A DNA stretch of 57,374 nt from a virus: positions 1 to 57,374 of the IMG/VR virus record IMGVR_UViG_3300006805_000034. One strand, written 5' to 3'. Positions 19,701-48,289 of this stretch are shown piece by piece. Every line of letters begins with the position of its first letter. The stretch's first letter is position 1. The notes beneath the pieces are model-generated. The model worked only from the letters and a program-made list of their open reading frames with translations. It searched no databases and was not told the DNA's origin. A program made the translations under genes and the position numbers.

Positions 19701-21494
19701 GAGGTGCTGCGACTGGACAGTGAGCCTGTGGCTGCGGGTGACGAGTTTGATCCGGATGCGAATCCGGCGCAGTTCATGGGCCCGGATGGGCCGATGGAGA
19801 TCCGGAGTGTGACGCTCAGGGACGGCACGACGTTTGGCGTGCAGACGATCGACGGTCAGCAGGGGCTGTACGTGGATGCCTTCAGCGTGCGCCAGGAAGG
19901 CGACTTTTACGCCGGGCTGAGCGATGCGGTGCAGAATCGCACGATCGACGATGCGGACGCGGTGCTGCGGGTGATGCAGCACGAGGGCATGGATGCCACG
20001 ACGCCGTTTTCGCAGATCGTGCTGGCGATTCAGCAGAACCTGCGGGTGCCGATGCGGCGCGCGCAGAAGATGCTGGCGCAGGTGATGGACACAGATGCCA
20101 ACGCCACGGTGTGGACGAATGGAGAACTCAAGGAAGCGCTGGAGAGTCCGCTGGGGAGTCCTAAGAAACAGGCTGGGCCGGGATTGTTTGGGGAGGATGA
20201 GATGAACTTTCTGGGGGACCGGAACACGCTGGGGCTGTTTGAGCAGGCAGGGCGTAAAGAAGCGCAGGTTTCTGGCAAAGGAATGAAGGAGCAAGGGAAT
20301 GCCGGAACCGGAGTGGGGACCACGGATGGCACGACTAGAACGGATCAGAAGACGAAGGCCGGCGGTGGACAGGATTTACAGAATTCCATCATTACAGGAT
20401 TGCCGAAAAGCGCTGAACGACCCAGTTTTGCGCAGGTGCGTGATGCGATTGTGGCACAGACCCCGGAGAAACGAGGCTTGTCAGTGGATGATTACATTGA
20501 TGACAATTTGGAGCGGACTTATCCGGCTCCTGGAACTCGATTTAAAGTCAATGGTAAGACCTACCATTGGACCATCACCCCAGGAACCAAGCTGCGTGGC
20601 AGCAGCATGGCTTTCAGCAATCCGTGGATGAGTGTTTTTGAAGGGGAGCGCAATTTCTTGGTCAAAATTCCTTTTGCCCCCGAACTCACGGCGTCACATC
20701 TGCGCAAAGCAGTGAGGGCAATTCACGAGGATGCTTATCCCGCCAAAGAGTTCACCCTGGAAGCGAGCACGGCGCAGGAGCTCAAGGCCGAGGCGGAGAG
20801 GAAGGTGCTGCGGGAGAATCTGCTGGCGCGGGCGGAGAAGCCGCTGGTGGGGACGCTGGGGGACATCGGGCAGACGCAGATGTTTGGGGGCGGGGATTTG
20901 TTTGCGCAGCCGAAGAAAACAACCGATACTCAAAACCAAGATGCACCAGCTACCTCCGGAAGTTTGGAACCAGATCGCCCGCGAGGCACCGCTGGCGACA
21001 CCGGCCGCACGCGCGGCCTTCAACCTGCCGCCCCAGAAGCAGGAGGCAATGCTCAACCAGTGGGCCCAGAGCGAGCAGAAAGCCAAGACGCCGGCGTGGG
21101 CGGTGGTGCCACTGCAGGAGGTGCTGCCCCTGCTGGCGGAACAGCCGGCGCTGAGCCAGTTCAAGGACAAGCATCCCGAGTTCCTGGACGCCCTGCCCGA
21201 GGTGAACAGCCCGCAGGAGGCGGCGCAATTGATGAGCCGAGAGCGGCAGTGGAGTCCGGCGCAGAGCTCGACCTTTCTCCAGTTGCTCCAGAGCGGCCAG
21301 CCGTTGACACGGTGGCAGCAGAGCGCGAGGTTACTGCACGCGACCGCCAGCTAGAGCAGGCCAAAGTTCAGGTAGAACCCAAAGAATGGGATCGGATGAA
21401 AGTGGCTGATGAGAGAGAGCATCGCCAAGAGTTTGCCGATGCTGCTGCCGCAGCAGCAGGACGATGTGCTGAAAACGGAGCGCCGCTTTTTTGA
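13797..21494 (+). CDS. Giant virion/ejection polyvalent protein, N-terminal partner
   Basis: 2,565 residues. Regions: QARRN N-terminus; charged coiled coils (30-310 and 360-620); Ala/Gly-rich membrane-type segments (about 810-925) resembling membrane-active regions of phage ejection proteins; a helical domain (1480-1750); and a conserved-looking domain PSKGWLERMAQDGKDRSKIG to LGYFPGV (about 1815-1900) like those in phage polyvalent proteins. Seven clusters of palindromic elements read in frame (near 317-360, 1050-1109, 1247-1292, 1310-1336, 1442-1478, 1747-1757 and 2152-2202). From 20941 to about 21330 the frame is Ala/Gly/Pro-rich and overlaps another gene. The end (VQVEPKEWDRMKVADERE) seems to continue into the next ORF after a shift at 21411. 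A role in the virion and in ejection is inferred. Confidence 0.75.
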   Translation: MPADLNYLLQARRNRYAQPAGGARASSPEDPRAAVEEEAFQAESKRLALAAKEQEAAAEEAAKAYEKGRRDADKEALRARNNEMEAKARREKRPIYTDADGVIQSQYTDDEWQAQKQRKAKNDQLRTRYFKEQRPWVEDADGNLVTRHTDEQWQAMQAEKVAKEKAKVIDDQAKDWREQKGAALTAVDDQTAQVMRGLDLDGQDLGLRHKAKLDTVKKANAQIKLLEQEIENGETEAGQILDGAAIAKRTAARQALVGERDKVQAEADEAEAKLRAHEVRKLEYSRANNEVQGWLQREKHGLKTALPPVVMGVKGREEPAKAGTTLPGGRNQSQSPLQTGAPSPETGGRNTLKREQRTPEEAVRRAVMEGRISALAEDDSLSDEERAVKLTRLMLQRDDPAAYETQVLQEFESLDPEQLNATLDGHLQDFEMRKQDWQSRRDALREQTQAVNAEVDGVLARNAQRLQQPHKAADLIEYTTADGGKVSVFKDLAPQLEQAQEKAGTFEKQNQAQMDQINAEGGELERAAKLIHAGGGVFQKKQEGARVAAKAERQKVYEQLNAIPGAKLGDELAAVDAAVEKHQGGDDVSLQEWAAKEREKIAAKAEDVQKKVGPAVQEAYAAASAKMPAGVDLNGELDRDPLGLEGPASEAGVTKLLEKMGLPSSKENRQMAVKMLRDAAVLDWSRGDTSAPVRTDSAGRVLVNPERWTDGEAYAEAVAGAGASEAEKAKALKMQPELKAQAIKLKLDTLRPLGVFREWEEAEVPPTREEKMQARANGTQAVPRKLHEGLSDEEKLKLFEKENSGVFSTGAWKVRWNQALLGAVQGVIGLAQSATGIAAPFSDTALDLNRRFGQDAAQLGAASQALPTGQWVNQGASMLVSSAPSLAVGGAVGAATRSEMLALQGAAAGAGLQTFGQVYGDAVQGSMQNKGMTKDEARQAALVPALASGVSTYALTAAGGTNGMESALRQEGFKQGLKQWLTTVGKGALKEGVLEEGPDQLIQGVIARHSYDPTKSWASIWEETATAVIGGALMGGAFEMMSGGGGTSQNGKGMEEQGNGGTGQAVGPEPVVTPVAETEPVVARPEPAEAGTTLLPETGPDTLKREQRTKEAEAELAGFAPEGMSAAAVAATKAKAEVLLRMAQGETLADFNDEELRQVGLNRDGTPGHYESVPVDKKNPQAGRTSVWKKGVRADGFQPVVVEDGELIITQRQIDNLGVRLPAVAARIGKSEVERRREIAGKGALISGKGMKDQGNAGTGVEGRKEAQEPEKKGSEAGGGQDGQDSRISGLRTELAAAAAAESSPVVASPEPAQAGTTLLPEDGTGADRSVRAPVEAVGFDPAVERRVDEIGAELAGRGLSGEQALRAARGVVGRMGVMGPKYEVQMIDPAFEEAMKAEGFQRDPAKMSRWMARGQFKAETRGEKPVMRKAEGAKSGPGVASPEPAEAGTTIPGGQSQLQTGAPSTEAGKSARAPLIERGDWKQAKGEVIGVMQGRAKGLPEAGKKAAGDKIKAVVKRFNKLEELIDTKFGRLFEGVRIVPNGSSGGGGLAAQVTGYDAQGRATGVELVVDAATFAEAGGVTDSELERALNEEWQHRADLMVMSRSEAIALARDIHAAQPGVFNSAWKQYFAVYINAGSKPAKPPVELTDDEAYMMYFEASRMIRQGTFTSENAAIRDVGLLQRMYLMLSRYVNFVKREMKKLPQDLRELWEDKLTAAEAVMRKTKEAGIRLQKEGLDDVEPPEGLPQKGAKTRKKEEVNEDEEAMAMAADAEMDVRPERKGALRNPGENAIRGMAAIPDPDNGKENVVVWINRYHGRITRPSKGWLERMAQDGKDRSKIGDWDDIRQAEIPSFYAGLVFKNGNGSTLDQALQELHGLGYFPGVAAEDVTGEMLARKIKDVIQRYQGKKQGGATTVQDEEQAHFERMEKQRVEFERSTSKGPIYVKPHEMQPGDVMMVKADDGKMHRVEVLRLDSEPVAAGDEFDPDANPAQFMGPDGPMEIRSVTLRDGTTFGVQTIDGQQGLYVDAFSVRQEGDFYAGLSDAVQNRTIDDADAVLRVMQHEGMDATTPFSQIVLAIQQNLRVPMRRAQKMLAQVMDTDANATVWTNGELKEALESPLGSPKKQAGPGLFGEDEMNFLGDRNTLGLFEQAGRKEAQVSGKGMKEQGNAGTGVGTTDGTTRTDQKTKAGGGQDLQNSIITGLPKSAERPSFAQVRDAIVAQTPEKRGLSVDDYIDDNLERTYPAPGTRFKVNGKTYHWTITPGTKLRGSSMAFSNPWMSVFEGERNFLVKIPFAPELTASHLRKAVRAIHEDAYPAKEFTLEASTAQELKAEAERKVLRENLLARAEKPLVGTLGDIGQTQMFGGGDLFAQPKKTTDTQNQDAPATSGSLEPDRPRGTAGDTGRTRGLQPAAPEAGGNAQPVGPERAESQDAGVGGGATAGGAAPAGGTAGAEPVQGQASRVPGRPARGEQPAGGGAIDEPRAAVESGAELDLSPVAPERPAVDTVAAEREVTARDRQLEQAKVQVEPKEWDRMKVADEREHRQEFADAAAAAAGRCAENGAPLF
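14745..14870 (+). repeat. In-frame cluster A, C, B
   Basis: A (EEPAKAGTTLPGG), C (LQTGAPSPE) and B (NTLKREQRT) in a row inside the giant ORF. Confidence 0.9.
16947..17122 (+). repeat. In-frame cluster E, A, B
   Basis: E (GKGMEEQGNGGTG), A at 17049-17085 (PEPAEAGTTLLPE) and B at 17097-17122 (DTLKREQRT), following the membrane-type segment. Confidence 0.9.
17537..17668 (+). repeat. In-frame cluster E, H, F
   Basis: E (SGKGMKDQGNAGTG), H (GRKEAQEPEKKG) and F (GGGQDGQDSRISG). Confidence 0.9.
17723..17803 (+). repeat. In-frame cluster A, D
   Basis: A (PEPAQAGTTLLPE) and D with core GCGGACAGGAGTGTCCGC (ADRSVRAP). D keeps a perfect stem despite base changes relative to other copies. Confidence 0.9.
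18121..18228 (+). repeat. In-frame cluster A, C, D
   Basis: A (PEPAEAGTTIPGG), C (LQTGAPSTE) and D (AGKSARAPL). Confidence 0.9.
19034..19065 (+). repeat. In-frame H element
   Basis: CGCAAAAAGGCGCAAAAACT, translated PQKGAKTRKKEE, before an acidic stretch. Confidence 0.75.
20250..20402 (+). repeat. In-frame cluster H, E, F
   Basis: H-like (GRKEAQ), E (SGKGMKEQGNAGTG) and F (GGGQDLQNSIITG), the same order as at 17537 apart from E and H being swapped. Confidence 0.85.
20941..21354 (+). CDS. Gene nested in the giant ORF, alternative frame
   Basis: 137 residues in frame +1 relative to the giant ORF (MHQLPPEVWNQIAREAPLAT onward; later LSQFKDKHPEFLDALPEV and RWQQSARLLHATAS). The translation has a normal globular composition with GC-rich third codon positions. 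The overlapping giant-ORF frame is a Gly/Ala/Pro/Arg-rich linker here, so the nested frame is probably the selected one. It ends at TAG 21352-21354. No strong ribosome-binding site is seen. Family not recognised. Confidence 0.55.
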   Translation: MHQLPPEVWNQIAREAPLATPAARAAFNLPPQKQEAMLNQWAQSEQKAKTPAWAVVPLQEVLPLLAEQPALSQFKDKHPEFLDALPEVNSPQEAAQLMSRERQWSPAQSSTFLQLLQSGQPLTRWQQSARLLHATAS

Positions 21495-24400
21495 GCAGAC
21501 ACCCACGGAAACCGACCCGAAAAGAGGGGTGATGTTTACCAACGGCACGGGCACGGGCAAAACCTTTACCGGGCTGGGCATCATCAAACGGTTTGAGATG
21601 ATGGGCAAAGGCCGCGTATTGATCGTGGTGCCGAGCCAGCAGAAAGTCACCGACTGGAAGAACGAAGGCGCGCGGGTGATGGTCAAGGTGAACCCGCTGA
21701 ACGACACCAATGACGTGGGAGAGGATGTGGTGGCGACGACCTACGCCAATCTGCGCGACAACTGGAAGCTTCAAAGCGAGCCGTGGGACCTGGTGGTGTA
21801 CGATGAAAGCCACTACCTTTCCAGCAATGCCCAGGGCAACGAAGGAGCCAACATACGCGCGCATGAACTGGCCACTAACAAGCCCGGATGGAACCAGATG
21901 GAGAAATGGACGCAGGCAGTGCTGGGACCGCGCCCCAGTCGCCGGGAAGATGAAGCCGCAGCCAAGCGCTACGACAACGCCGCCGAGCAGGCCAGCAAGC
22001 AGATTCAGTACCTAGCCGACACCGCCCCGGACACCAAGGCCGTGTTTTTGAGCGCGACGCCTTTCGCGTATCACAAAAACCTCAAATACGCCGACGGCTT
22101 TCTTTACTCGGCCCCGCCGCGCTCGGACAGCAGCGCCTACAACACGCCGCAGGGCTTTGAGCGCTATTTGGTGGAGAATTTTGGGTACACGATGCGGACC
22201 AACCGCCTCAACTCGCCACCGCCTGAAGTGGACACGGGATTGATGGAACGCGAGTGGGCGGAGCGCCAGTTTCAGCAGGGCAGCATGAGCGGACGCATGA
22301 TTGACGTGCCGTATGATTACAGCCGTGAATTTGTGCTGCTGAACTCGGAAACGGGCCGCCTGCTGGATGAAGGATTCCGCAGTTTGTCGGGATGGGACCC
22401 CGACACGCGGGACCGCTGGCCGGAGCTGACAAGTGCCTTCAACAGCTACTGGCGCAGCAGCAGCAGCGGGTACACAAAGATGATGCAGTTCATGGAGTCC
22501 ATCAAAGTGGCGGACGCCATTGAGCGCATGCAGCAGCACCTTGACATGGGGCGCAAGATTGTGCTGTTCCATTCCTACAACAACGCCGATCCGCTGCACC
22601 CGTTCCAGTTGAGCTATCTGGCACCGGCTTACCGCAATGATCCTGCCGAGCAGATCGGGGAACGGCAGATGCTGGAGCAGCAGACCCGCGACTGGATGTC
22701 GGCGCACCCCAAACTGGTGCAGATGAATTTCCGACGTTTGCAAAATCCTCGTGCCCTAGTGGCGCAGGAGTTTGGGGACCGGGTGAAATTCTTCAACGGG
22801 GAAGTGGGCAAGAAAGACCGCGCAGCGGCGATCACGCAGTTTAACGACGACAACAGCGGCGTGGACATCTTCATGGTGCAGACCGATGCCGGCAAGGAAG
22901 GTATCAGCCTGCATGATACCACGGGCAAAAAGCAGCGCGTGCTGATGAACGCCAGCCTGCCGGTGAAACCGACTGATGCCATCCAGGAGGAAGGGCGCAT
23001 TTACCGCATCGGCGTGCTTTCGAATGCCATCCAGGAGTATCTGGTGCTGCACACCAACATGGAGCGCAGCGCCTTCGGCAGCAAGATCAGCCAGCGCACG
23101 GGCACCGTGGAAAACATGGCCTTAGGCCAGATGGCGCGCACGCTGACGGATTCCTTTAAATCCGGCTATCTGAACGCGCACGGCGAAGATCCGAGCCGGG
23201 AGCAGGGGCTTGGCGGCAAGGAGCAGGACAAGGCCGAGCTGCTGGGGGACGACTTCACCCGCGCCAAATCCTATTACTTTGGACGCATGAAGAAAACCAG
23301 CCGCAACAAGGCGGCTGAAGGGCAGGACTATTTTGCCACCCCGGAGCCGCTGGGGCTGGTGATGGTGCGCATGCTGGGAGCCAAGCCGGGCATGGACCTG
23401 CTGGAGCCGAGTGCCGGGCACGGAGCCATTGGGCGGTGGTTTCCTGACACCACGGCCAACAAGTTCATCGAGCCGAGTCGTACGCTGGCGGATGAACTGC
23501 GCATCAAGGTGGCGTCTGGGAAGGTGGAAGTGCAGCCTTTCGAGGATCTGCACATCATGAACAAATTCGACGGCGTGGCGATGAACCCGCCGTTTGGCAC
23601 GGCGGGCAAGCTGGCCATTGAGCACCTGGCCAAGGCCAGCAGGCACCTGCGCCAGGGCGGGCGCATGGTGGCCATCATTCCCGAAGGGCCGGCGATGCAG
23701 AAGCGCTTTGATGCCTGGCTGGAGGGCGAAGGGGCTGACATGCACCTGCGCGCATCCTACGGGTTGCCGACAGTAACATTTGAACGGGCGGGCACGAGCG
23801 TGAAAACGCGGTTGGTGGTGCTGGATAAAGCCGACCTGTGGACGGTGAGGCATGAGCCTGAAACAGGGACGTATGCCGCCTATGACAGTTTTGGCGAAAA
23901 GCGCCGGTCATACAAAGGTGGGGAGAAAACGTTGCGGGATCTGGCGGAAACCAATCCTGAGTTTATTGGCTGGCAGGATCAGGCGAATTTCCAAAATCGC
24001 AGCCCCCGCGAGATTGAGGCCGAGAACGTGAAGGAATTCTTTGACGAGATCGAGAACCTTGAAGCACCGCCGCGCATCGTCAAAACGGTGGCGACGGGGG
24101 CTTTGGATTCGGAAACTACATGGACGCCGCCTTATCCAGGTGCGCCCAATCCCAGCATTGCCGAGGCAATGCAAAACATGCAGCAGCAAAACCAAAGAGT
24201 GCCGAGCATGGCCCCTGCGGCACCCGTAGTCACCCCAGCCGCCGCTGCTTCCAATCCTTACGAGTCCGCGCAGACGCTGCACGCGAAAAAGGGCGTGATG
24301 ACCTACGTGGCCAAGATGTCGCGCCGCTTGAGTGATGCCACCTACCAGAGCGAGAAGAACCGCGCCAAGAAGTTTGGCGGGTACTACTCCGCCTTCAAAG

Positions 24401-27400
24401 GCAGCGGAGCCATTCCAGGATTCCAGTTTGAAAGTGCTGACAAACGCGATGCGTTCGTGGGTGGGTACACAGAGTCGGCACCTTTGAGCAGCCCGAGGAA
24501 GCAGATGCCGATTTTGAAGACGATTGAGAAGGTGCAGGAGTGGTCTCAAGCGGAGAACAAGAAAGAGGTGCTGGATCAACTGCCGGAGGATTTGCAGGCG
24601 AAGATCGAAGCGGATGAGCGCTGGCAGTGGCTGGAGAAGCATGATGCGAGCGAGGAGTTTGCGCCGTGGTATCCAGAGCCCTACCGGACGGCAAGTCGGG
24701 TGTATGCCGACCTTTCAGCGCGTCAGGCGGCAGATGAAGAGCTGACGGCCGCTGAAGACAAGGCGATGGACAAGGCGCATGACAAGCTGCTGGCCTGGGA
24801 GATGGCCGGCGGCCCGTGGAATCATGTGCTGGCGACGTATGAGCCGGAGATTGAGGCGCGGATGAAAGAAGTGATTGCGCAGATTGAGGCGACGGGGCGC
24901 TGGGAATGGGACAAGCGGGAGAGGGCGTTTGTGGCGACGGATGAGGACAATGAGCAGGTGCTGTACAGTCCGAGGAAGCAGGGGGGTGCCAAGACGGAGA
25001 AAGAAGTGTTTGATCACCGGCTGGCGGTGGCAAAGGCGGAGATTGAGAAGGACATGAGCGAGGGCGTGGTGCCGCGTGGAGTGCGTTCTTTTGCGGAACT
25101 GCATGACTCGGTGGATGCCAATGAGTACGTGAATGACAAGGAGCGGCCCGACCGGATGATTGGCCCGATGGGCACGGCGCAGGGCTGGCGTGCTCAGGAG
25201 TATGTGAATTTTACCAATAAGTTGATTGAGGCGCTGGATGAGTGGCTGAAACAAGGGGGTGCGGCCGGAAGCCAGAACACGCTAAAGCGTGAACAACGTA
25301 CGGGGATTGATGAGGCGGCGCATGAGGCGGCGACGTCGCCGAGGAATGATTTGGCGGAGCCGACGGCGGCGCAGAAGGAGGCGGGGAATTATGCCATGGG
25401 GCATGCTGTCATTGGTGGGCATGAGATTTCGATTGAGAATCCGGCGGGGTCGAGGCGCAGGCCGGAGTGGCCGGTGCTGAGGGATCACTATGGGTACCTG
25501 AAGGGCACGAAGGGGCAGGACGGGGACCAGGTGGACTTGTTTGTGAAGCCGGGGACGCCGGCGGACTATGCGGGGCCGGTGCATGTGGTGCGGCAGAATG
25601 TGGTGGAGGGGGGAGATGATGCTGGATCCTTGATGCTGGATGCTGGATCCAGAACCGGAGCCGGAGCGGGCAAGAGTGCCCGCGCTCCACTGAGGGCGAC
25701 GGGGAAGCTGGATGAGTACAAGGTGATGCTGGGGTATCCGACGGCGGCGGAGGCGCGGGCGGCGTATCTGCGCAACTACACGCCCGGCTGGCCGGGGCTG
25801 GCGAAGCTGACGACGCACACGATGCCGGAGTTTGAGGTGATCAAGCGGAGCGTGTTTGGCGGCGATGCGGGGGCGAGGGCGACGGACAAGGCGCTTGCGA
25901 GCGCCCAGAAGCAGGGGCAGGGTGGAGGCATGGCCAATCCCGACAAGGCCGATCAATCTCAAGCCATCCAACCCGCTTTGTTTGCCCGGCTCAAGGGTTC
26001 AAAGACGTTGTATCCTGTTCGTGACTTGGATGATGTGGCCAAAAAAGCCTCATGGATGAAGGTGAGATACCAATCCCGCCCGATAGTCGAGATTGTGACC
26101 AGCGATGGGATTGTGCGAGGGGTGAGTGATGAACAAGGTGTTATTCGTGAACCGAATGGCACCGTGATCTGGAACCCGTTTGATGATGAAAATACCGACC
26201 TGCTGGCGGCACCCCGCAAGCAGGGGAAGGCGCTGGAGATGATGGCGAAGGCGGACTGGGGGCGGATTGACAAGGCTCTTACGGGGCGGCTGGCGCAGGC
26301 GGTGACGGATGCGGCGCAGTGGATCAAGAAGCAGGCGCTGCCGGGTGAGGCGCAGGTGAACCCCGTGGATGCGGCGCTGGAGCTGCTGGCGGGGTGGAGG
26401 GTGGAAGGGCAGGCGGCTATGGGCGGGGTGAAACTGAAGCCAGACCAGAGGCAGGAGCTCATGGCTCAGACCCGGCGGCAGATGCGCCGGGCGTGGAACT
26501 ATGCGCAGCGGCAACTGGTGCCGGATGCCTCCCTGCCGGCGGATGTGCTGGCCAAAAAGCGCGAGATGACGATGAACCAGGGGCTGAGCAATGAGGTGGC
26601 GCTGGACATCGGCAAACGGGCGCTGGCGGGCAAACCGAAGCTGTCCGACCTGGTGGTGGGTGAGGCGCAGCAGAATCCAGAGATCCGGCGCAAGATGTTC
26701 CTGGCGATGAACCCGCGAATTGACAGCGGAGTGACGATGGACAGCCTCAATCCCGAAGAGCGGCGGGTGGCGGAGGCTTTACTGAAGCTGCGCGACGACC
26801 TGGGAAAACGCATGGTGAAGGCGGGACGGATCGGACTGCAGACGTATGAAGCGATGCGGGAGGGCACGAGCCACTACTATGACCATGACGTGAAGCGGGA
26901 GAAATCCCTGCTGCGGCAGATGAGTCTGGGGCTGCGCAACTTGTTTGCCCAGACGGCCACGGCGTATCACATCGTGGACACGCAGACGAAGCAGCCGGAT
27001 GGCAGTCCGGCGCTGGTGATGCACCCTGGAAGCCGGAACCGGCCGACGTATCGCTTTGAGACGCAGGAGCAGATGCGCGGGTGGTACGAGGAGTTCATCA
27101 AGGACCAGATTTTGCAGGCGGCGGAGAAGGGCAACGCCGGGCGCTACCCGTGGATGACGCAGGCGGACAAGGCGGCGCTGATGGGCGTGACGCGGGACAG
27201 CCTGAACAATCCGGGCCGGATGAGCGCCGAGCAGCGCGCGGTGGTGTCGCGCCTGCAGGAGCAGCTCCGGGCCCGCTTTGAGAAGCGGATGCCGCTGAGC
27301 TACGACGAGCACAGCAAGGCGGGGCTGATTGAAGACCCGTTTTACTCGGTGGCCCGACAGATCGCCGAGATGGGGCATGACGTGGCGACTGCGGAGTTTT

Positions 27401-29232
27401 TCAACTACATCGATTCCGTGCCGGACTACGTGCGGGATGCACCCACGATCGGCTACACGGAGATGCCTGACACGGCCAAACTGGGAGCGCTGGCCGGGAA
27501 GTACGTGCGGGATGACGTGGCGGCCGAGGTGCAGCAACTGACCGAGCTGCCAGGGCTGGGCATGAAATTCTATGATGCGCTGCTGGGGCTGTTCAAAACC
27601 GGCAAGACGGTGCTCAACCCCGGAAGCCACGGGCGCAACATCGTGGGCAACATCGCCTTTGCGCATCTGGCGGGGAGCAATCCGCTGAACCCCGGCAATG
27701 CCACGTACTACGCCGAGGCGCTGCGCGTGCTGCGGGACGGCGGCGAGGCCTACCGGGAGATGTATGAGAACGGCGTGCTGGGCGGCGACTTCCTGACCGG
27801 GGAAGTGAAGCGCAGCCTGCGGCAGCTGGTGCCGGATGCGGACACGGTGCTGCGGGAGGCCGAGAACGGCAACATGACTTGGCTGTACGGGCCCAAGGAG
27901 CACATGGCGCGGCGCTGGCAGGGCTTGCTGAAAACGCCCGGGAAGGCACTGGACATTGCAGCCACGGCCTGGCGGCTGGAGGATGACATTTACAAAGCAG
28001 CGGCCTACCTCAAGGCGAAGGGCATGGGCATGACCAGCAAAGAAGCAGCGGAGCACGTGCGCGAGTGGTTCCCCTACTACGACAAGGGGACGAGCGGCAC
28101 GCTCAAGGCGCTGGGACGCTTTGCCTTCCCGTTCCTGAGCTTCAAGCGGGAGAGTTTCCGCATTCTGAAAAACGGGCTGACGAAGAAGCCGCTGGCAACG
28201 ATCGCCACGCTGGCGCTGCCGAGGCTGCTGACGCAGATCGCGCTGACGACGGCCGAGATGCGCCTGCTGATGTGGACGCTGGGCCTGGGGCTCAAGGACG
28301 AGCGAGACAAGGAAGACGTGATGAAGGCGCTGAAGGGTCGGGCCGGACGCCTGCTGAGCCCGATTGCGGGGGATTCAAGCCTCTTCAGCATTTTGCTGCC
28401 GTGGCGGGATGACAACGGGGGACTGCAGCAGTGGGACCTGAGCAACACGCATCCCTTTGGCGACTGGCTGGCCACGCGCATCGAGGACGCCGAGAGCAAG
28501 GAGCCGTGGCTGGCACGGCAGGCGCGTGAGATGCTGACGGGATCGCCGTTGTTGGGGCTGCTGACAGAGACTGCCTTCAATAAGGATGGATTCACCGGGC
28601 GGCGGATTTATGAGGATGACATGAGCAGCGGCGAAGCCACCGGCAAGCTAGTGGAACATGCGTTTACGGAACTGGCACCACCGATCACGCCCACGGTATC
28701 GCTACCGAACGGCGTGAAGCTGGAGGGCACGAGCGCGCGCACGATCCGGAAAGCCTTTGAGCAGAGCCCGAGCAAGCTGGCCCCGGCGCGGAATCCGACG
28801 CAGGCGCTGATCCGCACGCTGGTGGGGCTGGATGTGCGGCCCGCGGACCCGAACCTGTATGAGGACGTGGCGAAGTATCGGGAGAAGAACAAGCTGCCGG
28901 CGGTGCCGCGGGGGCAGCAGTTCCCGAGCGATGCCGTGGGCCGTGCGCGGGCGGAGCTGTACCGCCTTCTCATTCATCCGGAGGTGGATGTGCCGGCGGT
29001 GAAGGCGCAACTGGAGGTGCTGACGAAGCACGGGGCGAAGATCCCGAGCGTGCAGGATTTGTTTAAGGATCGGCAGCCGCAGGATGTGATGAGGCTGAAG
29101 AAGCACCAGGCGCGCTGGATGAACCAACTGCCGCCGGAGGCGCGGCGGGTGCTGGAGGCGGCGCAGGCGCAGCAGAGTGGGGCGAAGCCGAAGGCGCTGG
29201 ATGCGATGGCGAAGGCGCGGGCGGGTGGGTGA
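21409..29232 (+). CDS. Giant polyvalent protein: SNF2-like helicase, DNA methyltransferase, InPase-like and C-terminal virion domains
   Basis: 2,607 residues. Helicase: Walker A NGTGTGKTFTG (about 45-55), DESH box (about 132), motif III SATPF (about 216), and C-terminal QTDAGKEGISLHD with EEGRIYRIG (about 490-530). N6-type DNA methyltransferase: LLEPSAGHGAIG (about 665) and NPPFG (about 726). InPase-like domain about 1324-1480 (MGHAVIGGHEISIENPAGS, HYGYLKGT.GQDGDQVDLF, KVMLGYPTAAEARAAYL). C-terminus: NPGSHGRNIVGNIAFAHLAG (about 2070) and GRFAFPFLSFKRESFR (about 2237), as in large polyvalent phage proteins. Such proteins are packaged and delivered to counter host defence or act in early infection (known for the class, inferred here). 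The ATG has no upstream partner stop and may be a frameshift junction. Confidence 0.85.
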   Translation: MRESIAKSLPMLLPQQQDDVLKTERRFFEQTPTETDPKRGVMFTNGTGTGKTFTGLGIIKRFEMMGKGRVLIVVPSQQKVTDWKNEGARVMVKVNPLNDTNDVGEDVVATTYANLRDNWKLQSEPWDLVVYDESHYLSSNAQGNEGANIRAHELATNKPGWNQMEKWTQAVLGPRPSRREDEAAAKRYDNAAEQASKQIQYLADTAPDTKAVFLSATPFAYHKNLKYADGFLYSAPPRSDSSAYNTPQGFERYLVENFGYTMRTNRLNSPPPEVDTGLMEREWAERQFQQGSMSGRMIDVPYDYSREFVLLNSETGRLLDEGFRSLSGWDPDTRDRWPELTSAFNSYWRSSSSGYTKMMQFMESIKVADAIERMQQHLDMGRKIVLFHSYNNADPLHPFQLSYLAPAYRNDPAEQIGERQMLEQQTRDWMSAHPKLVQMNFRRLQNPRALVAQEFGDRVKFFNGEVGKKDRAAAITQFNDDNSGVDIFMVQTDAGKEGISLHDTTGKKQRVLMNASLPVKPTDAIQEEGRIYRIGVLSNAIQEYLVLHTNMERSAFGSKISQRTGTVENMALGQMARTLTDSFKSGYLNAHGEDPSREQGLGGKEQDKAELLGDDFTRAKSYYFGRMKKTSRNKAAEGQDYFATPEPLGLVMVRMLGAKPGMDLLEPSAGHGAIGRWFPDTTANKFIEPSRTLADELRIKVASGKVEVQPFEDLHIMNKFDGVAMNPPFGTAGKLAIEHLAKASRHLRQGGRMVAIIPEGPAMQKRFDAWLEGEGADMHLRASYGLPTVTFERAGTSVKTRLVVLDKADLWTVRHEPETGTYAAYDSFGEKRRSYKGGEKTLRDLAETNPEFIGWQDQANFQNRSPREIEAENVKEFFDEIENLEAPPRIVKTVATGALDSETTWTPPYPGAPNPSIAEAMQNMQQQNQRVPSMAPAAPVVTPAAAASNPYESAQTLHAKKGVMTYVAKMSRRLSDATYQSEKNRAKKFGGYYSAFKGSGAIPGFQFESADKRDAFVGGYTESAPLSSPRKQMPILKTIEKVQEWSQAENKKEVLDQLPEDLQAKIEADERWQWLEKHDASEEFAPWYPEPYRTASRVYADLSARQAADEELTAAEDKAMDKAHDKLLAWEMAGGPWNHVLATYEPEIEARMKEVIAQIEATGRWEWDKRERAFVATDEDNEQVLYSPRKQGGAKTEKEVFDHRLAVAKAEIEKDMSEGVVPRGVRSFAELHDSVDANEYVNDKERPDRMIGPMGTAQGWRAQEYVNFTNKLIEALDEWLKQGGAAGSQNTLKREQRTGIDEAAHEAATSPRNDLAEPTAAQKEAGNYAMGHAVIGGHEISIENPAGSRRRPEWPVLRDHYGYLKGTKGQDGDQVDLFVKPGTPADYAGPVHVVRQNVVEGGDDAGSLMLDAGSRTGAGAGKSARAPLRATGKLDEYKVMLGYPTAAEARAAYLRNYTPGWPGLAKLTTHTMPEFEVIKRSVFGGDAGARATDKALASAQKQGQGGGMANPDKADQSQAIQPALFARLKGSKTLYPVRDLDDVAKKASWMKVRYQSRPIVEIVTSDGIVRGVSDEQGVIREPNGTVIWNPFDDENTDLLAAPRKQGKALEMMAKADWGRIDKALTGRLAQAVTDAAQWIKKQALPGEAQVNPVDAALELLAGWRVEGQAAMGGVKLKPDQRQELMAQTRRQMRRAWNYAQRQLVPDASLPADVLAKKREMTMNQGLSNEVALDIGKRALAGKPKLSDLVVGEAQQNPEIRRKMFLAMNPRIDSGVTMDSLNPEERRVAEALLKLRDDLGKRMVKAGRIGLQTYEAMREGTSHYYDHDVKREKSLLRQMSLGLRNLFAQTATAYHIVDTQTKQPDGSPALVMHPGSRNRPTYRFETQEQMRGWYEEFIKDQILQAAEKGNAGRYPWMTQADKAALMGVTRDSLNNPGRMSAEQRAVVSRLQEQLRARFEKRMPLSYDEHSKAGLIEDPFYSVARQIAEMGHDVATAEFFNYIDSVPDYVRDAPTIGYTEMPDTAKLGALAGKYVRDDVAAEVQQLTELPGLGMKFYDALLGLFKTGKTVLNPGSHGRNIVGNIAFAHLAGSNPLNPGNATYYAEALRVLRDGGEAYREMYENGVLGGDFLTGEVKRSLRQLVPDADTVLREAENGNMTWLYGPKEHMARRWQGLLKTPGKALDIAATAWRLEDDIYKAAAYLKAKGMGMTSKEAAEHVREWFPYYDKGTSGTLKALGRFAFPFLSFKRESFRILKNGLTKKPLATIATLALPRLLTQIALTTAEMRLLMWTLGLGLKDERDKEDVMKALKGRAGRLLSPIAGDSSLFSILLPWRDDNGGLQQWDLSNTHPFGDWLATRIEDAESKEPWLARQAREMLTGSPLLGLLTETAFNKDGFTGRRIYEDDMSSGEATGKLVEHAFTELAPPITPTVSLPNGVKLEGTSARTIRKAFEQSPSKLAPARNPTQALIRTLVGLDVRPADPNLYEDVAKYREKNKLPAVPRGQQFPSDAVGRARAELYRLLIHPEVDVPAVKAQLEVLTKHGAKIPSVQDLFKDRQPQDVMRLKKHQARWMNQLPPEARRVLEAAQAQQSGAKPKALDAMAKARAGG
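21411..21419 (+). repeat. Short GA run at the giant-ORF junction
   Basis: GAGAGAGAG. Adding one GA unit (or removing one base) would fuse the two giant ORFs as ...MKVADERESIAKSLPMLLP. Confidence 0.6.
25273..25302 (+). repeat. In-frame B element
   Basis: CACGCTAAAGCGTG core, translated NTLKREQRT, just before the InPase-like domain. Confidence 0.9.
25617..25692 (+). repeat. K and D elements inside the InPase-like domain
   Basis: K (GGATGCTGGATCC type, 25617-25652) and D (25662-25692) add about 25 residues (DDAGSLMLDAGSRTGAGAGK then SARAPL) in a loop of the domain. Confidence 0.85.
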
Positions 29233-29297: not shown

Positions 29298-29735
29298 ATG
29301 ACTCAAAAGACTCAAAGCTTCGCCATCGGAACTCGTTGCCGTCGCAAGAATCCGTTTATTCTATATCACTGGTCGCCACGGTGCAGGAGGGAATCAATCC
29401 TGCGCAACGGGCTTGTTGTTGGCAGTAAACACGCAATTCACTCAAATGGCTGGAGAGCTACCTATCTCTGCTTCTCGGACAGTCCTTCGTTTGGGTGGGC
29501 TTATAGCGCCGACACCAGCAAAACAAAAGGCGAATGGGACCTGTGGATGGTTTGGAGTACTGGGCTGAGCAGTCTATTTTACCGCTCTGATCATCATGGC
29601 CAGATGCCAGCCGAATACCGAACCAAGCACAACGTTGCCAAGAAGAATCTTTGGCTTGTGGGTTCTAGATCAAGGGCGAAGGGGAAGGGGAAGGGGAAGG
29701 GCCGAGCGGCGCGAATCCATTTGGCAAAGGAATGA
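29298..29735 (+). CDS. Possible ADP-ribosyltransferase-like small protein
   Basis: 145 residues. The opening ILYHWSPRCRRESILRNGLV matches the start of small ART or Tpt1/KptA-like folds (LYH...S...ILR.GL, the NAD-contacting His and following helix). It continues with TYLCFSDSPSFGWAYS and a Tyr/Trp-rich C-terminal half. Base composition is lower in GC than the flanks. The Lys/Gly tail (SRAKGKGKGKGRAARIHLAK) and stop come from a GGGAAG hexamer tract and a family E element. Function is tentative: modifying host protein or nucleic acid, or a toxin-like factor. Confidence 0.5.
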   Translation: MTQKTQSFAIGTRCRRKNPFILYHWSPRCRRESILRNGLVVGSKHAIHSNGWRATYLCFSDSPSFGWAYSADTSKTKGEWDLWMVWSTGLSSLFYRSDHHGQMPAEYRTKHNVAKKNLWLVGSRSRAKGKGKGKGRAARIHLAKE

Positions 29736-29756: not shown

Positions 29757-29912
29757 ACCGGAGGTGGACAGGATTGACGAGGCGATTCTCGTCCTCGCCC
29801 TGCGGGCTCCTTGCAGTCGTCTGTCTCGCTACCGCTCGGCTCACAGAATTACAGCATTTCAGGATTGGGGATGGAGCCGGAGACGGACACGCTGAAGCGT
29901 GAACAACGTACG
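29757..29912 (+). repeat. F element split by about 65 bases, then B element
   Basis: The left half of F (GGACAGGATTGAC) ends at 29778 and the right half (AGAATTACAGCATTTCAGG) resumes at 29845. Between them is a separate sequence rich in CTCG. B follows at 29884-29912. Part of the gap 29736-29949, where I see no gene. Confidence 0.75.
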
Positions 29913-29913
29913 G

Positions 29914-29946
29914 AAAACGCCACCGGGGGTGAGCCGGTGGCGTTTT
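29914..29946. terminator. Bidirectional intrinsic terminator
   Basis: 13-bp perfect stem AAAACGCCACCGG / CCGGTGGCGTTTT with a 7-base loop. A and T tracts on the two sides let it act in both directions. It lies 4 bases beyond the stop of the last gene of the leftward operon and downstream of the rightward giant-gene transcript. Confidence 0.9.
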
Positions 29947-29949
29947 GGT

Positions 29950-30105
29950 TTATCTCTTCGGCCTTGACTTGCGGGCGACTTTATCGAGCCAGCCTTGGAA
30001 CTGGGCCAGGGTGCCCCGCATGCGATAGCGGAAACCGGCTGGCTGTCTGAGTTGTTTGGCCTGCTCGCCTGCCTGTGCAAGCTGCTGATGGAGGAGAAGT
30101 TTCAT
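29950..30105 (-). CDS. 51-residue basic protein, last gene of leftward operon
   Basis: MKLLLHQQLAQAGEQAKQLR, then QPAGFRYRMRGTLAQFQGWL and DKVARKSRPKR. Helical and strongly basic, so possibly nucleic-acid binding. The stop is immediately followed by the terminator at 29914-29946, which supports the frame. No family recognised. Confidence 0.6.
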   Translation of the reverse strand: MKLLLHQQLAQAGEQAKQLRQPAGFRYRMRGTLAQFQGWLDKVARKSRPKR

Positions 30106-30171
30106 GGGCGTGGACTTCCCCAGGGTGGCAGACGGGCGGGAGTGCCTGTGCTGGACGGGCTGGGGAAAGGG

Positions 30172-30492
30172 TCAACGCTTTCGCAAAGGAAAGGTGAAGG
30201 TGATAGGCGCGACGCTTCGGGGGGCGGGCGCTCGACTTAGCGCGAAAACAGCAAGCTCAACGGTGTGCATGTTGTCGCCGTAAACGTCCCAAAAATACTC
30301 CATCTTTGGGCCGTTGCTGTATCGCAGGAATGCCGGATATTCCGGGTCGTTATTGCAACGAACCCGTACTTCAGGCTTCGTGTCTGGCCTTGGATGTGGC
30401 GGCATGTAGTCTGGCACAATTTCGCAGTTTTTGTGCCATGGTTGGTCAAGTAGCAGTGCGAGAAGCTTTTCAAGATTGATCTCGGCTTTCAT
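30172..30492 (-). CDS. Hypothetical protein of leftward operon
   Basis: 106 residues from MKAEINLEKLLALLLDQPWH. Includes CEIVPDYMPPHPRPDTKPEV and a compact region with RVRCNNDPEYPAFLRYSNGP, then an aromatic-rich stretch (KMEYFWDVYGD). The start overlaps the stop of the 34-residue membrane peptide upstream (ATGA). Less GC-rich than the phage core. Function unknown. Confidence 0.65.
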   Translation of the reverse strand: MKAEINLEKLLALLLDQPWHKNCEIVPDYMPPHPRPDTKPEVRVRCNNDPEYPAFLRYSNGPKMEYFWDVYGDNMHTVELAVFALSRAPAPRSVAPITFTFPLRKR

Positions 30493-30593
30493 TTGCGCAG
30501 CAGGGTGAAGAGGAGGATGAGCAGGCCGGTGAGGAGTCCGGCGTAGAGTCCGCCTAGGGTGGCGGGAGGGAGATCGGGGGAGAGGAGGATCAT
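30489..30593 (-). CDS. 34-residue membrane peptide
   Basis: MILLSPDLPPATLGGLYAGL followed by LTGLLILLFTLLRK: one hydrophobic helix with a basic end. ATGA overlap with the downstream gene and 8 bases after the upstream stop fit a coupled operon gene. A membrane partner for its neighbours, or a small holin-like or regulatory peptide, is possible. Confidence 0.6.
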   Translation of the reverse strand: MILLSPDLPPATLGGLYAGLLTGLLILLFTLLRK

Positions 30594-30601
30594 GGGGTAG
30601 A

Positions 30602-30988
30602 TCACGTAAGATGCAGTGAGCGAGCGTCATCAATCGCAACCCGTGCTGCCGATGGGCTTCCTTCCCAGTCGTGGCGCAGAATCCATTCGGTGACGTGTTT
30701 AGCCGTGATTGTGTCGGGCGCGGGCTTTGCTGGCTTGATTGAATTGCATAGACTGCTGACCAAATAGGCAGGCATCAGTTTGGAACAAAGGACGTAGTAA
30801 ATCCCACGTTCAACCCATGCAGAGACCACCGTCCAGCCAATATGCTCGGACGTGAAACTCTGGCCGATTTGATAAAAGCGGCTGAATGGATACGGCGTCT
30901 CCGTTCGGAACTGTTCAAAAGTGGCCACGTCAAAGTAGAGTGCGGATATTGGCGGTGCTTGATCGGGCGGCGTTTCAGTGGCGCTCAT
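30602..30988 (-). CDS. Hypothetical protein of leftward operon
   Basis: 128 residues with an N-terminal proline-rich leader, then ISALYFDVATFEQFRTETPY, aromatic-rich SRFYQIGQSFTSEHIGWTVV and GIYYVLCSKLMPAYLVSSLC. Likely a small mixed alpha/beta fold. Coupled by ATGA to the upstream gene (30985-30988). No family recognised. Confidence 0.65.
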   Translation of the reverse strand: MSATETPPDQAPPISALYFDVATFEQFRTETPYPFSRFYQIGQSFTSEHIGWTVVSAWVERGIYYVLCSKLMPAYLVSSLCNSIKPAKPAPDTITAKHVTEWILRHDWEGSPSAARVAIDDARSLHLT

Positions 30989-31254
30989 AGCTTTGAGGGC
31001 GGCGTTTTCTTCAGCAACTGCCGGAGGCGTTCGCGCAGGCGATCTTCGCGGGTGTAGGTGCCGTATTTGGAGGCGATGCGCTGGCCGATGGCAATCAGGC
31101 GATAGCCATCGTCAAAATTGCGGTTGTTGTCCTCGCGTGAAATGTGTTCGGCGATGCTGCCGTTGGAGCGGCGCAAAGACCGGCCCAGGCGGATCATCCA
31201 AGCAGCGGCATGCCGGTGGGAGGTGAAGGACTCGGGGCAGGTGGGGAGGGACAT
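30985..31254 (-). CDS. First gene of leftward operon, helical hypothetical protein
   Basis: 89 residues: MSLPTCPESFTSHRHAAAWM, IRLGRSLRRSNGSIAEHISR and REDRLRERLRQLLKKTPPSK. Mostly basic helices, resembling small DNA-binding or regulatory proteins. It opens the five-gene leftward operon; the promoter must lie in 31255-31422, opposite the portal gene. Confidence 0.6.
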   Translation of the reverse strand: MSLPTCPESFTSHRHAAAWMIRLGRSLRRSNGSIAEHISREDNNRNFDDGYRLIAIGQRIASKYGTYTREDRLRERLRQLLKKTPPSKL

Positions 31255-31266
31255 CGGTGAGTCATT

Positions 31267-31313
31267 TCAGCACGAAAACGCTTTCGGGTCAAGGGTGAAG
31301 ATTCATCCCAGAC
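31267..31313 (+). repeat. Element O: hairpin plus ATTCATCCCAGACA, copy 1
   Basis: CACGAAAACGCTTTCGGGTC hairpin, then a TCATCCCAGACA box. An inverted copy lies at 47170-47217. Confidence 0.7.
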
Positions 31314-31324
31314 AAGCGGACAAC

Positions 31325-31354
31325 CAGACACGCTGAAGCGTAAACAACGTACGG
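31325..31354 (+). repeat. B element
   Basis: CACGCTGAAGCGTAAACAAC, followed by a second ACAACGTACG end, in the portal leader. Confidence 0.85.
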
Positions 31355-31379: not shown

Positions 31380-31410
31380 ATGCGTTGACGGTGGCTGGGT
31401 AGTCACCCCA
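31380..31410 (+). promoter_or_regulatory. ATGCGTTG / TAGTCACCCCA composite leader of portal gene
   Basis: ATGCGTTG at 31380-31387, a 12-base gap and TAGTCACCCCA at 31400-31410, ending 12 bases before the portal ATG. The same pair precedes the genes at 34275 and 39401. Regulatory role inferred from position. Confidence 0.5.
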
Positions 31411-31422
31411 TAATGCGGGGTT

Positions 31423-33768
31423 ATGCCTGATGACCGCCGCGTGATGTTTGAGACGACCCTGCCCATCGACCGGGACATGGAAACGCGCATGGTGGAGTAT
31501 TTTTACAATCTGGCGCTGAAGATCCACCAGGACATGGGCTACGCGGGATCGCCGGGGGATTACGGCTTTGACACGTGGCTGTGGAAACGGCTTTCGTGGA
31601 TGAACCGCTACCACAACGATTTCAGGGATCGGCTGTGGCTGCCGCCGGAGCGGGACGGGGTGCTGTTTCGGATGTGCAACAAGTCGCTGAACATGCCCAA
31701 GCAGTTTGTGGGCGGGTATCACGCAGCGCTGACCAGCAGTCTGGACGGCACGGCGTTCATTGAGGTGCGCGGCGAAGGCGGTGAGGATGAGAATCCGGCG
31801 CTGCCGCTGTTCCAGCGCTACCTGCGGGCCAAGGCGGAACGTTTGATGCTGGGGCGGCTGCTGAAAAACGAGAGCGTGCTGATGTGCCTGAACATTGGCC
31901 AAAGTGTGTGCCAGGTGGTGCAGAAGCGCGAGCTGCGCACTGATCCGCGGCAGGTGCGCTGCGTGCGCGACCTGCGCCAGGAGGGAGATGTGCCGCTGAA
32001 AGACAGCACGGGCAAGCTGGTGACAGAACTGGACGAATGGATACCCAACCCAGCGAATCCGCGCCAGAGCATCCTCAAGCGAGACACGCGCGTGTTTGTG
32101 GAGTATCCCGAGGGCACGGTGCCGCATGCGCCGACGGAGCTGACGGCGCGCACGTACACCGTGGATCATGTGATCAAGAATCACCAAGGCGCGGCAATTG
32201 AGTTCATTCACCCGGGCGATTTCCTGTGGCAAATCAACAAGCCGAGCCTCGATGCCAGCGATTTGGTGGGGCACTTCACCATGATGGCGGTCGATGACCT
32301 GTTTGACTGCTTTGACCGCAGCCGCATGACCGAAGCCGGGAAAAAGTTTGAGAAGCGATACAGCACTGCCGCGCAGTCGGGCAATCAGGGAGACCCGACC
32401 AACCAGGAGATGCCGATGCCGAACATGGGGGAATCCCCGGACAGCACCAACGTGGTGATCGATCCCGGCGCGCTGGCACCGCGCAAGTTTCTGTTCTTGT
32501 ATTCAAGGTATGACTGGAACAAGGACAATCGGAGAGAGCGCGTGTTTTGCGTCATTGACTGGGAGACGCGCCAGCCGGTGGCGTATGACCCCACGAGCCT
32601 CGTACTGGAAAGCGACGTGCGGCTGCACCCGTATTTCATGCCGGTGATCGGCAAGGTGAACTTCCGCGCCTATGGCGAGGGCTTGTACGAGCAGCACGAC
32701 GACCTGAGCCAGTATGTGGATGCCTGCTGGTGTCGCATCCAAATCGAGCAGCAATCGAGCGGCAAGATCACGGCGTTTGATCCCAATGCCCTGGAACAGA
32801 CCTGGGCGGGTGGCAGCCTGAAACTGCGGGGCCCGACGCTGTGGCGGAAGCGCAACCCGGCGCAGAGCATCAACGAAATCATCGACGTCAAGGTGGTGCC
32901 GGCGGAGACGGCGGAGCTGCGCGAGAACATGGCGGTGGGCATGCAGACGATGACCAGTCGCGGCGGCGGCATGACGGTGGACCAGGCCGAAAGCAGCGGG
33001 CTGGGGGCGGCGAACACGCTGGGCGGGCTGCAACTGCTGGAGCGCCAGCGGGGGAGAGCGCAGAACAGCACGGCGCAGGACCTGAAGGACAGTCACCAGG
33101 ATCTGCTGCGGGTGTGGGCGCAGGTGGAACGCGACTGCTTTGACATGGAGTTTGCCAAGGAACTGTTTGGGGATTTGCTGGTGGACGTGGAGGTCGCACC
33201 GCCTGGTCCGCAGCAAACGATGGAGACCGCGCAGCCGGAAGCTGCGGGCGAAGTCATCACCCCCGACGGCATGCCGGTAGAAGAACCGGCCGCGATGGGG
33301 CTGCAGAAGATGCAGGTGCCGGCGGCGCAGGTGCTGCAGCAGTTCTTGAAGACGGTGAAGCCGGATTCGCTGGCCAACATGGTCAACATCGTGCTCACGG
33401 ACAGCACCGAGAGCGAAGAGATCGCTCAGACGGAAAACCGGAAAAAGATCATTCTGGACTTCCTGCAACTGGGCAGCGCCGAGGCGATGCAGGCGACGGC
33501 GGCGGAGTTCACTGACCTGCTCAAGCGCAACGGCAGCAAGGATGCGGAGAAGACCATTGCGCAGGCGATCAAGGCGCAGAATCAGAAGGAAAAGCAGGCG
33601 CAGCAGAAGGCGATACAGCAGCAGGCGCAGCAGCAGCCGGGCGGGCTGAATGCCGCGCCGGGAGGACCGGCACAGCAGGACCCGACGAGCGAAGCGCCGA
33701 TGACGGGGCGACCGGAGAGCATGCAGGAGTTTAATCCGGGGCCGTGGCCGGTGGAGCCGATGGTGTGA
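31423..33768 (+). CDS. Portal protein (P22-type)
   Basis: 781 residues. Long portals of this kind sit at the capsid vertex as a dodecamer, bind the terminase and open the channel for DNA. The N-terminal half is mixed alpha/beta (MVEYFYNLALKIHQDMGYAG; WKRLSWMNRYHNDFRDRLWL). The wing and clip region includes FLFLYSRYDWNKDNRRERVF and LHPYFMPVIG. The stem-type segment QSSGKITAFDPNALEQTW is followed by VDQAESSGLGAANTLGGLQL. The Gln/Lys-rich C-terminus (KEKQAQQKAIQQQAQQQPGG) resembles a barrel helix and tail. Size and order are right for podovirus portals. Confidence 0.8.
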   Translation: MPDDRRVMFETTLPIDRDMETRMVEYFYNLALKIHQDMGYAGSPGDYGFDTWLWKRLSWMNRYHNDFRDRLWLPPERDGVLFRMCNKSLNMPKQFVGGYHAALTSSLDGTAFIEVRGEGGEDENPALPLFQRYLRAKAERLMLGRLLKNESVLMCLNIGQSVCQVVQKRELRTDPRQVRCVRDLRQEGDVPLKDSTGKLVTELDEWIPNPANPRQSILKRDTRVFVEYPEGTVPHAPTELTARTYTVDHVIKNHQGAAIEFIHPGDFLWQINKPSLDASDLVGHFTMMAVDDLFDCFDRSRMTEAGKKFEKRYSTAAQSGNQGDPTNQEMPMPNMGESPDSTNVVIDPGALAPRKFLFLYSRYDWNKDNRRERVFCVIDWETRQPVAYDPTSLVLESDVRLHPYFMPVIGKVNFRAYGEGLYEQHDDLSQYVDACWCRIQIEQQSSGKITAFDPNALEQTWAGGSLKLRGPTLWRKRNPAQSINEIIDVKVVPAETAELRENMAVGMQTMTSRGGGMTVDQAESSGLGAANTLGGLQLLERQRGRAQNSTAQDLKDSHQDLLRVWAQVERDCFDMEFAKELFGDLLVDVEVAPPGPQQTMETAQPEAAGEVITPDGMPVEEPAAMGLQKMQVPAAQVLQQFLKTVKPDSLANMVNIVLTDSTESEEIAQTENRKKIILDFLQLGSAEAMQATAAEFTDLLKRNGSKDAEKTIAQAIKAQNQKEKQAQQKAIQQQAQQQPGGLNAAPGGPAQQDPTSEAPMTGRPESMQEFNPGPWPVEPMV

Positions 33769-47077: not shown

Positions 47078-47217
47078 GATGGCCTCAAAAAGGCGCAAGA
47101 ACCGGAGAAAAAACCGGAGCCGGATTTTTTGACAGGATTGACAAGATTCCAGAATTTCAGGATTCCAGAAGTGTGTCTGGGATGAATAATGGGCGTTGAC
47201 ACGAAAGGGTTTTCGTG
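47078..47217 (+). repeat. H, F and inverted O elements
   Basis: H (47080-47115), F (47129-47170), then element O in inverse orientation (47170-47217): a TGGGATGAATA box and a 7-bp hairpin CACGAAA/TTTCGTG. Confidence 0.75.
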
Positions 47218-47236
47218 GAGAGTGAGGGACCCGATT

Positions 47237-48289
47237 ATGAATGATGAAACCACCCCGAAGATTGTGCCGTTTGAAACGCAGGCAGCAGCCATTGAGAATC
47301 TGAACTTGCAGGGATGCCGGAGTGGCAATGGGTTAGATCCGTGCGCGCTGGCGGTGGGATTGCTGACGACCCATGAGTGGAGTGGACCTTGGCTGACGTG
47401 CTACATGCTGCGGAGGTTTGGCTGGCCGAACATCGGCAGCGATGATTGGAAAGAACTGATGACATGGGTACTGACGACTCCGATTGATGGACTGTTTTTG
47501 ACCGTGACGCCTTACATGGGGAATGATCGTGATGAGGTAAAAACGGATCAGCAGGGGAAGATTCGAGGAACGTGTGCCTTGCATTTTGGCTACTTGCACA
47601 CCCCGGAAGTGGGCGAGGAGCGACTGAATTACTACGCCCCTGCCTGCCGCGAAACCATGGAGGCGCGGAAAGCCGTGGTGCAGCAGTGGTGGCTGGAAAC
47701 CGGGAACAAGCGGTTTTGCTGGGCTGGATGCACCGCCGAAGAAAAGGAAACATGTGTGCTGGAACACCACCCGGAAGGCAAGGTGCTGTGGGGCATTTAT
47801 GCGCGGAGTGAATCGCTTACCACCGGCATCCAGAACAAAGAGGGGACGATGACTGAGGCAGAACGCGAACTCTATTTTTCAGCCCCATTGCATCCTAATG
47901 TGCTGGGGTGGATGACGCAGCATCTGGGACTGGTGATTGACACTCTTGACCTGACGCACGACGATGATTTGTTTGTGCCGGCGAAGATCGGGCTGGATGT
48001 GGCGAACTGGCCGCAGGTGGACTGGAAGCGCGTGAACGAGGAAACGAAACAGCATGAGGCTGAATTTCTGGAGCCGTGCCGTGAGGCGCTGAGGGCGACC
48101 CTGCGCGATCTGCTGCGTCCGGTGTATGTGCGGGATGTGGGATTCAATGCGCTGGGCCGCAGTGATGAGTATGACGATGAGGACGCGCTGGCGCAGCCTT
48201 TGCCCAAAGTGGCGCAGTCTTTTGCTGGGGCGGGCTACACGCCGGAAGGCTGGTTTGAGATGCAATCCAGCCCTGAAAACAATCCTTAA
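47237..48289 (+). CDS. Hypothetical phage protein
   Basis: 350 residues from MNDETTPKIVPFE at 47237; upstream in-frame codons translate the O element hairpin. Segments: LDPCALAVGLLTTHEWSGPW, KRFCWAGCTAEEKETCVLEH with clustered cysteines, DTLDLTHDDDLFVPAKIGLD and an acidic end. No family recognised. Less repetitive than its neighbours and probably a conserved minor virion or late protein. Confidence 0.6.
   Translation: MNDETTPKIVPFETQAAAIENLNLQGCRSGNGLDPCALAVGLLTTHEWSGPWLTCYMLRRFGWPNIGSDDWKELMTWVLTTPIDGLFLTVTPYMGNDRDEVKTDQQGKIRGTCALHFGYLHTPEVGEERLNYYAPACRETMEARKAVVQQWWLETGNKRFCWAGCTAEEKETCVLEHHPEGKVLWGIYARSESLTTGIQNKEGTMTEAERELYFSAPLHPNVLGWMTQHLGLVIDTLDLTHDDDLFVPAKIGLDVANWPQVDWKRVNEETKQHEAEFLEPCREALRATLRDLLRPVYVRDVGFNALGRSDEYDDEDALAQPLPKVAQSFAGAGYTPEGWFEMQSSPENNP

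Follow-up and report, generated by a model that had tools for sequence, protein, structure and literature searches.

The region between positions 31254 and 29950 of a 57,374-nucleotide viral DNA (IMGVR_UViG_3300006805_000034, analysed over its whole length and referred to here as the window) is probably a moron-type cargo island with exchangeable genes. Judged by sequence comparison, the gene content at this one site differs between two sister phages while the ATGA junctions are retained. Islands of this kind are already known, and the record of cassette exchange is unusually clear. The preliminary description had proposed a moron from position and direction, a reading supported by the sister comparison in that the same site carries different genes, on the strand opposite to the late genes and with a promoter-like site and a terminator of its own. 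The features of the island and its borders are as follows, from right to left.

31385 to 31414, plus strand: rightward promoter-like site of the gene starting at 31423 (TTGACG-18-CATAAT), conserved in the sister phage
31327 to 31354, plus strand: second copy of the interspersed hairpin repeat, with the island promoter on one side and the putative portal gene on the other
31256 to 31316, minus strand: P_B, island promoter-like site (TTGACC-17 nt-TGAAAT), sigma70-like, upstream of g1
30985 to 31254, minus strand: g1, 89 residues, basic (pI 10.8), conserved core gene
30602 to 30988, minus strand: g2, 128 residues, variable cargo, ATGA overlap with g1
30489 to 30593, minus strand: g3, 34 residues, one predicted membrane helix with G-xxx-G-xxx-G, conserved core gene
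30172 to 30492, minus strand: g4, 106 residues, variable cargo, ATGA overlap with g3
30098 to 30178, minus strand: leader of the g5 cassette, 81 bp, 96% identical to the sister
29950 to 30105, minus strand: g5, 51-residue ORF with weak coding evidence
29914 to 29946, minus strand: terminator stem-loop, perfect 13-bp stem with a loop of 7, conserved in the sister after a 132-residue gene
29886 to 29913, plus strand: interspersed hairpin repeat CACGCTGAAGCGTGAACAACGTAC, abutting the terminator

The five leftward ORFs start at 31254, 30988, 30593, 30492 and 30105. The island is bounded on the left by a large gene ending at 29232 and a 145-residue ORF (29298-29735), and on the right by a large rightward gene (31423-33768), the putative portal. 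The left-hand large gene (21409-29232) contains helicase and InPase domains such as are described for polyvalent proteins. Proteins of that class are dealt with in PMC5512222. The 31423-33768 gene gave no family match in any library searched and no credible relative in a PDB sequence search, leaving the label "portal" of the preliminary description without a confirming match; the late-gene context of the island is accordingly inferred in part. Since an integrase (36-827) and terminase-like genes (9511-10290 and 10346-12043) are present, the phage is probably temperate and tailed. The host may belong to the Verrucomicrobiota. The island was said to be less GC-rich, which is correct (57.8% versus a window mean of 61.0%), but the departure is mild (14th percentile).

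The collections scanned yielded a single close relative, IMGVR_UViG_3300032315_001592, with a putative portal 85-87% identical in amino acids to that encoded at 31423, so that the comparison is one of two phages. The flanking genes are mostly common to both sisters and the content of the island differs. Leftward, the order in the window is interspersed repeat, promoter-like site, g1, g2 (ATGA), g3, g4 (ATGA), leader, g5, stem-loop and interspersed repeat. The order in the sister is promoter-like site, leader, 132-residue ORF, the same stem-loop and interspersed repeat, continuing with a second promoter-like site, g1, g3 (ATGA overlap) and a 147-residue ORF (ATGA overlap). The unit of leader, ORF and terminator therefore stands at opposite ends of the island in the two phages, with different ORFs. 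With two phages compared, each change may be either a gain or a loss. The window and the sister contig are circular permutations of each other, and the sister has about 4 kb that is missing at the window's ends (about 55818-59794 in window orientation).

The spacer of P_B holds the palindrome CGAAA-N4-TTTCG, and a GGGATGAATC box precedes the site. TTGAC followed by an AAA-N4-TTTC palindrome occurs at three sites in the window (31292-, 47196+ and 52115-) and at four in the sister, against 0.02 expected in the window by simulation, an expectation that understates chance to some degree since the same sites had served to define the pattern that was then counted. The stronger argument for such sites is their conservation in the sister rather than their count. 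Scanned for exact matches to the island promoter, viral contigs yielded the sister alone. Lying between -35 and -10, the palindrome points to repression by a regulator, possibly in the lysogen, and implies that expression of the island would be controlled rather than constitutive. An ORF at 5193-5798 gave a sub-threshold HTH_3 match. The 47196 site is also followed by variable content, a 351-residue gene absent from the sister, so this promoter type appears to feed variable content at two sites. That gene (starting at 47234, within the interval 47196-48289 on the plus strand) lies between the palindromic promoter and the next gene, belongs to no known family and had no phage homologue by tblastn. 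A conserved leftward gene for a 126-residue lysine/arginine-rich protein (51699-52079, minus strand) lies behind the same promoter type. Rightward-type promoter-like sites in the region were no commoner than chance, and support for the one at 31385-31414 therefore comes from its conservation in the sister.

The genes g1 and g3 form a stable pair, kept in both the window phage and the sister. The g1 product is 81% identical to that of the sister (dN 0.106, dS 0.465, dN/dS 0.23), and the g3 product 70-76% identical, varying with the alignment method, with a dN/dS of 0.43 (0.133/0.313) for what is a short gene; the corresponding value for the 31423 gene, window versus sister, was 0.15. The sister homologue supports g3 as a real gene. 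Its product has one hydrophobic stretch with a hydropathy maximum of 2.05, and the G-xxx-G-xxx-G pattern is kept in the sister. The most likely single function for the pair, put forward tentatively, is that it may alter the host envelope or superinfection behaviour.

A more specific proposal, possible though not probable, is an exclusion or abortive-infection module in which a soluble sensor, g1, would activate the membrane peptide g3 on superinfection, by analogy with RexAB or gp30/gp31 of mycobacteriophage Sbash, for which a model has been described (PMC6426596). In its favour, a soluble basic protein and a membrane peptide with a conserved glycine pattern are the only stable pair, surrounded by variable cargo in a moron position; lambda rexAB and Sbash gp30/gp31 are likewise small cargo operons with a soluble and a membrane protein (PMC6426596). 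The likeness is one of organization only, however, as no similarity was found to RexAB, Sbash-type domains or a PADLOC system, and searches of g1 to g5 for a relation to RexA/DUF4747 or RexB returned no Pfam or relevant PADLOC match. The g3 product, with 34 residues and its one hydrophobic stretch, is moreover a single helix rather than a four-helix protein or multi-helix membrane channel. The earlier suggestion of an anti-phage or exclusion system thus received no positive support from the sequence, PADLOC having returned one weak generic "HTH" match, to g4 (E 0.012), and none for the other genes. Exclusion, like the toxin-antitoxin explanation considered below, is a sub-case of the cargo-island reading, and the probabilities attached to these readings overlap instead of adding up to certainty.

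The relatives of g1 and g4 bear on a second explanation, judged unlikely, in which the ORFs are late accessory or assembly genes that act in lytic growth (assembly, lysis or takeover) and lie on the other strand by chance. Homologues of g1 at 55% identity were found in two other phage contigs, a recurrence counted in favour of cargo. In both contigs g1 is close to a gene for a tail protein or tape measure and shares the strand of the genes around it, a finding that counts against the cargo-island reading in that a late role, or one in assembly, would fit it too. An ORF matching phrog_31227 lies near g1 in one of these contigs; in the second, the stretch from g1 to the following tail gene has no such ORF. 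Both homologues match phrog_23588 at E about 1e-10; g1 itself matches this profile over most of the model (E 3e-4, residues 13-64 versus model positions 9-61/62). No credible relative of g1 or g4 was found in PDB sequence searches. Further matches to g1, in an Acidobacteria MAG and in a Sulfurovum MAG, run antisense within long ORFs unrelated to it and were set aside as due to chance.

Relatives of g4 at about 50% identity are XM05_182 of an Erythrobacter phage, gp119 of Sphingobium phage Lacusarx and an ORF of Rhizobium leguminosarum pRlX5, the identity to the two phage proteins being about 49-57% over a conserved core of 75-85 residues. The phage homologues are in dense same-strand clusters of large phages, as the late-gene explanation would have it, whereas g4 is in an antisense island; its recurrence in unrelated phages was counted in favour of cargo. 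The claim that none of the five genes has a known family consequently holds for g2, without a relative in viral contigs, phages, Pfam, PHROGs, NCBIfam or PADLOC, but not for g1, a member of phrog_23588 (a family lacking a functional annotation), or for g4, with its phage and Rhizobium plasmid homologues. The sister is without g2, and at the ATGA junction occupied here by g4 it carries an unrelated 147-residue gene. No phage homologue of that gene was found by tblastn. With neither g2 nor g4 present in the sister, both are probably dispensable for phage growth; g1 and g3 occur in both phages. The homology search for operon co-occurrence that had been recommended found g1 and g3 together in the sister, where g2 is missing and g4 replaced. 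Although g3 could serve as a small holin-like peptide, a late role for the island is opposed by the difference in its content between sisters that share most flanking genes, by a promoter unlike the rightward type and by the presence of a lysozyme-like gene elsewhere in the window, at 37239.

The preliminary description had linked all five ORFs in one operon. Three of the four junctions are indeed tight or ATGA-coupled, with ATGA overlaps at g1/g2 and g3/g4 and a gap of 8 nt between g2 and g3. The 66-nt gap between g4 and g5, on the other hand, is not an ordinary operon gap because it is part of the separate 81-bp leader block, which is 96% identical to the sister where most aligned blocks are about 80-90% identical. 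The island is better read as a g1-g4 operon followed by g5 as a cassette of its own. In the sister, this leader and start codon lead into the different, 132-residue ORF, for which tblastn found no phage homologue. The perfect 13-bp terminator reported at the end of the operon was borne out: it is the sole such inverted repeat in the window (none in six first-order Markov simulations), folds at -22.6 kcal/mol (z -4.4) and is kept in the sister. Because the sister copy lies about 12 nt beyond a leftward gene, a role for leftward genes is supported; because the T-run outside the stem is on the plus-strand side, the terminator may be bidirectional, insulating both directions.

The leader was also considered as a structured regulatory RNA, a candidate that was rejected since the fold is unexceptional (z -1.7) and the two near-identical copies are too few for covariation. 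Its predicted hairpin takes in GGGGAAG, a possible ribosome-binding site. This pairing was counted for a third explanation, a toxin-antitoxin-like unit in which g3 would be a small membrane toxin restrained by g1 or by the leader. The g3 product resembles type I membrane toxins in size and composition. Such a unit is nevertheless quite improbable, as the leader belongs to g5 and not to g3, has an ordinary fold and, like the rest of the island, gave no Rfam match.

That the ORFs are coding is well supported for g1, g3 and g4, which have homologues, fairly for g2, for which the annotated frame is the best of six, and weakly for g5, which may not be a gene. By codon scores the annotated frame is also the best for g1 and g4, and not for g3 or g5. 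Of the two very short products pointed out earlier, then, the one with 34 residues stands by its sister homologue and the one with 51 residues is doubtful. That the region is a decaying remnant or a set of spurious ORFs between two late genes is most improbable and largely refuted for g1, g3 and g4, since these have homologues, dN/dS values are below 1, the promoter-like site and stem-loop are intact and ATGA junctions surround the exchanged genes, even though all five ORFs score below the core genes in codon usage and g5 is weak.

The 145-residue ORF at 29298-29735 (plus strand) likewise scores below the core gene used for comparison in codon usage. It matches phrog_12283, has mycobacteriophage (Cheoctovirus) homologues, appears ADP-ribosyltransferase-like by eye, is flanked by a 51-bp direct repeat (29242 and 29699) and was not found in the sister. 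Antisense to it (29317-29403, minus strand) is a full-length match to Rfam RAGATH-28 that scores 34.4 bits and so falls short of the gathering score, 45.3; no RAGATH-28 match was present in the region of the mycobacteriophage homologue. The interspersed repeat at the island borders belongs to a wider set, CACGCTNAAGCGTGAACAACGTAC (a short hairpin followed by GTAC), with 16 copies in the window at up to 5 mismatches (for example at 9425, 12171, 14846, 29888, 31329 and 44318), all on the plus strand whatever the gene direction. Two weak copies are in the sister and two in L004, one of the two contigs with a g1 homologue (the other being L002); an exact scan of viral contigs for the repeat gave no match. 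A second interspersed repeat, TTTGGCAAAGGAATGAAGGAGCAAGGGAAT, has 8 copies in the window, all plus (1457, 16944, 17535, 20271, 29263, 29720, 33782 and 50945), and likewise 8 in the sister, all plus.

The cargo-island reading agrees with the anatomy of morons as defined in PMC2629481. Insertion is seen between relatives, g2 being missing, g4 swapped and the g5-type unit moved, and P_B and the 13-bp stem-loop, both conserved, provide sequence signals for an own promoter and terminator; on these grounds it is supported that the island fits the anatomical definition. An antisense position is characteristic of morons, and lysogenic expression is the second criterion in common use (PMC7067206). In view of the palindrome, such expression should not be taken for granted here. 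Lambdoid and P22-like morons, for example the "ant moron" (PMC2629481), similarly have a variable gene set at one late-region site, content that differs in related phages and independent expression signals. No homologous genes were identified between them and the island, which is unlike them in that its promoter-like site is common to other units of the same phage and the points at which its genes differ are ATGA junctions between a stable pair of genes.

In the mechanism proposed for the cargo island, non-structural genes lie on the strand opposite to the late genes and have a promoter and a terminator to themselves. Genes would enter, leave or be exchanged, with the promoter, the junctions of translational coupling and the g1/g3 pair remaining in place. 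The palindrome between -35 and -10 would be bound by a regulator, of the phage or of the host, that controls the island jointly with the other palindrome-promoter units. The leftward transcript would run through g1-g4 and on to the stem-loop, and the putative portal would be transcribed rightward from its own promoter. The g3 product could conceivably insert in the inner membrane of the host and oligomerise there as a single helix, with g1 as its soluble partner, g2 and g4 being extra cargo. In a doubtful extension of this reading, the island would belong to a set of cargo cassettes, spread over the phage genome under a single palindrome-bearing promoter type, whose genes are swapped at translational-coupling junctions, and g1/g3 would be a new kind of membrane-peptide exclusion module.

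If the island is ordinary cargo, its interest is mainly comparative. It provides a sequence-level record of accessory-island remodelling in which the neighbours change around two core genes that, like the promoter and the ATGA junctions, are retained. The shared palindromic promoter points to other units of the set (47196 and 52115), making a single regulator testable, and the g1/g3 pair is a small, defined candidate for functional screening.
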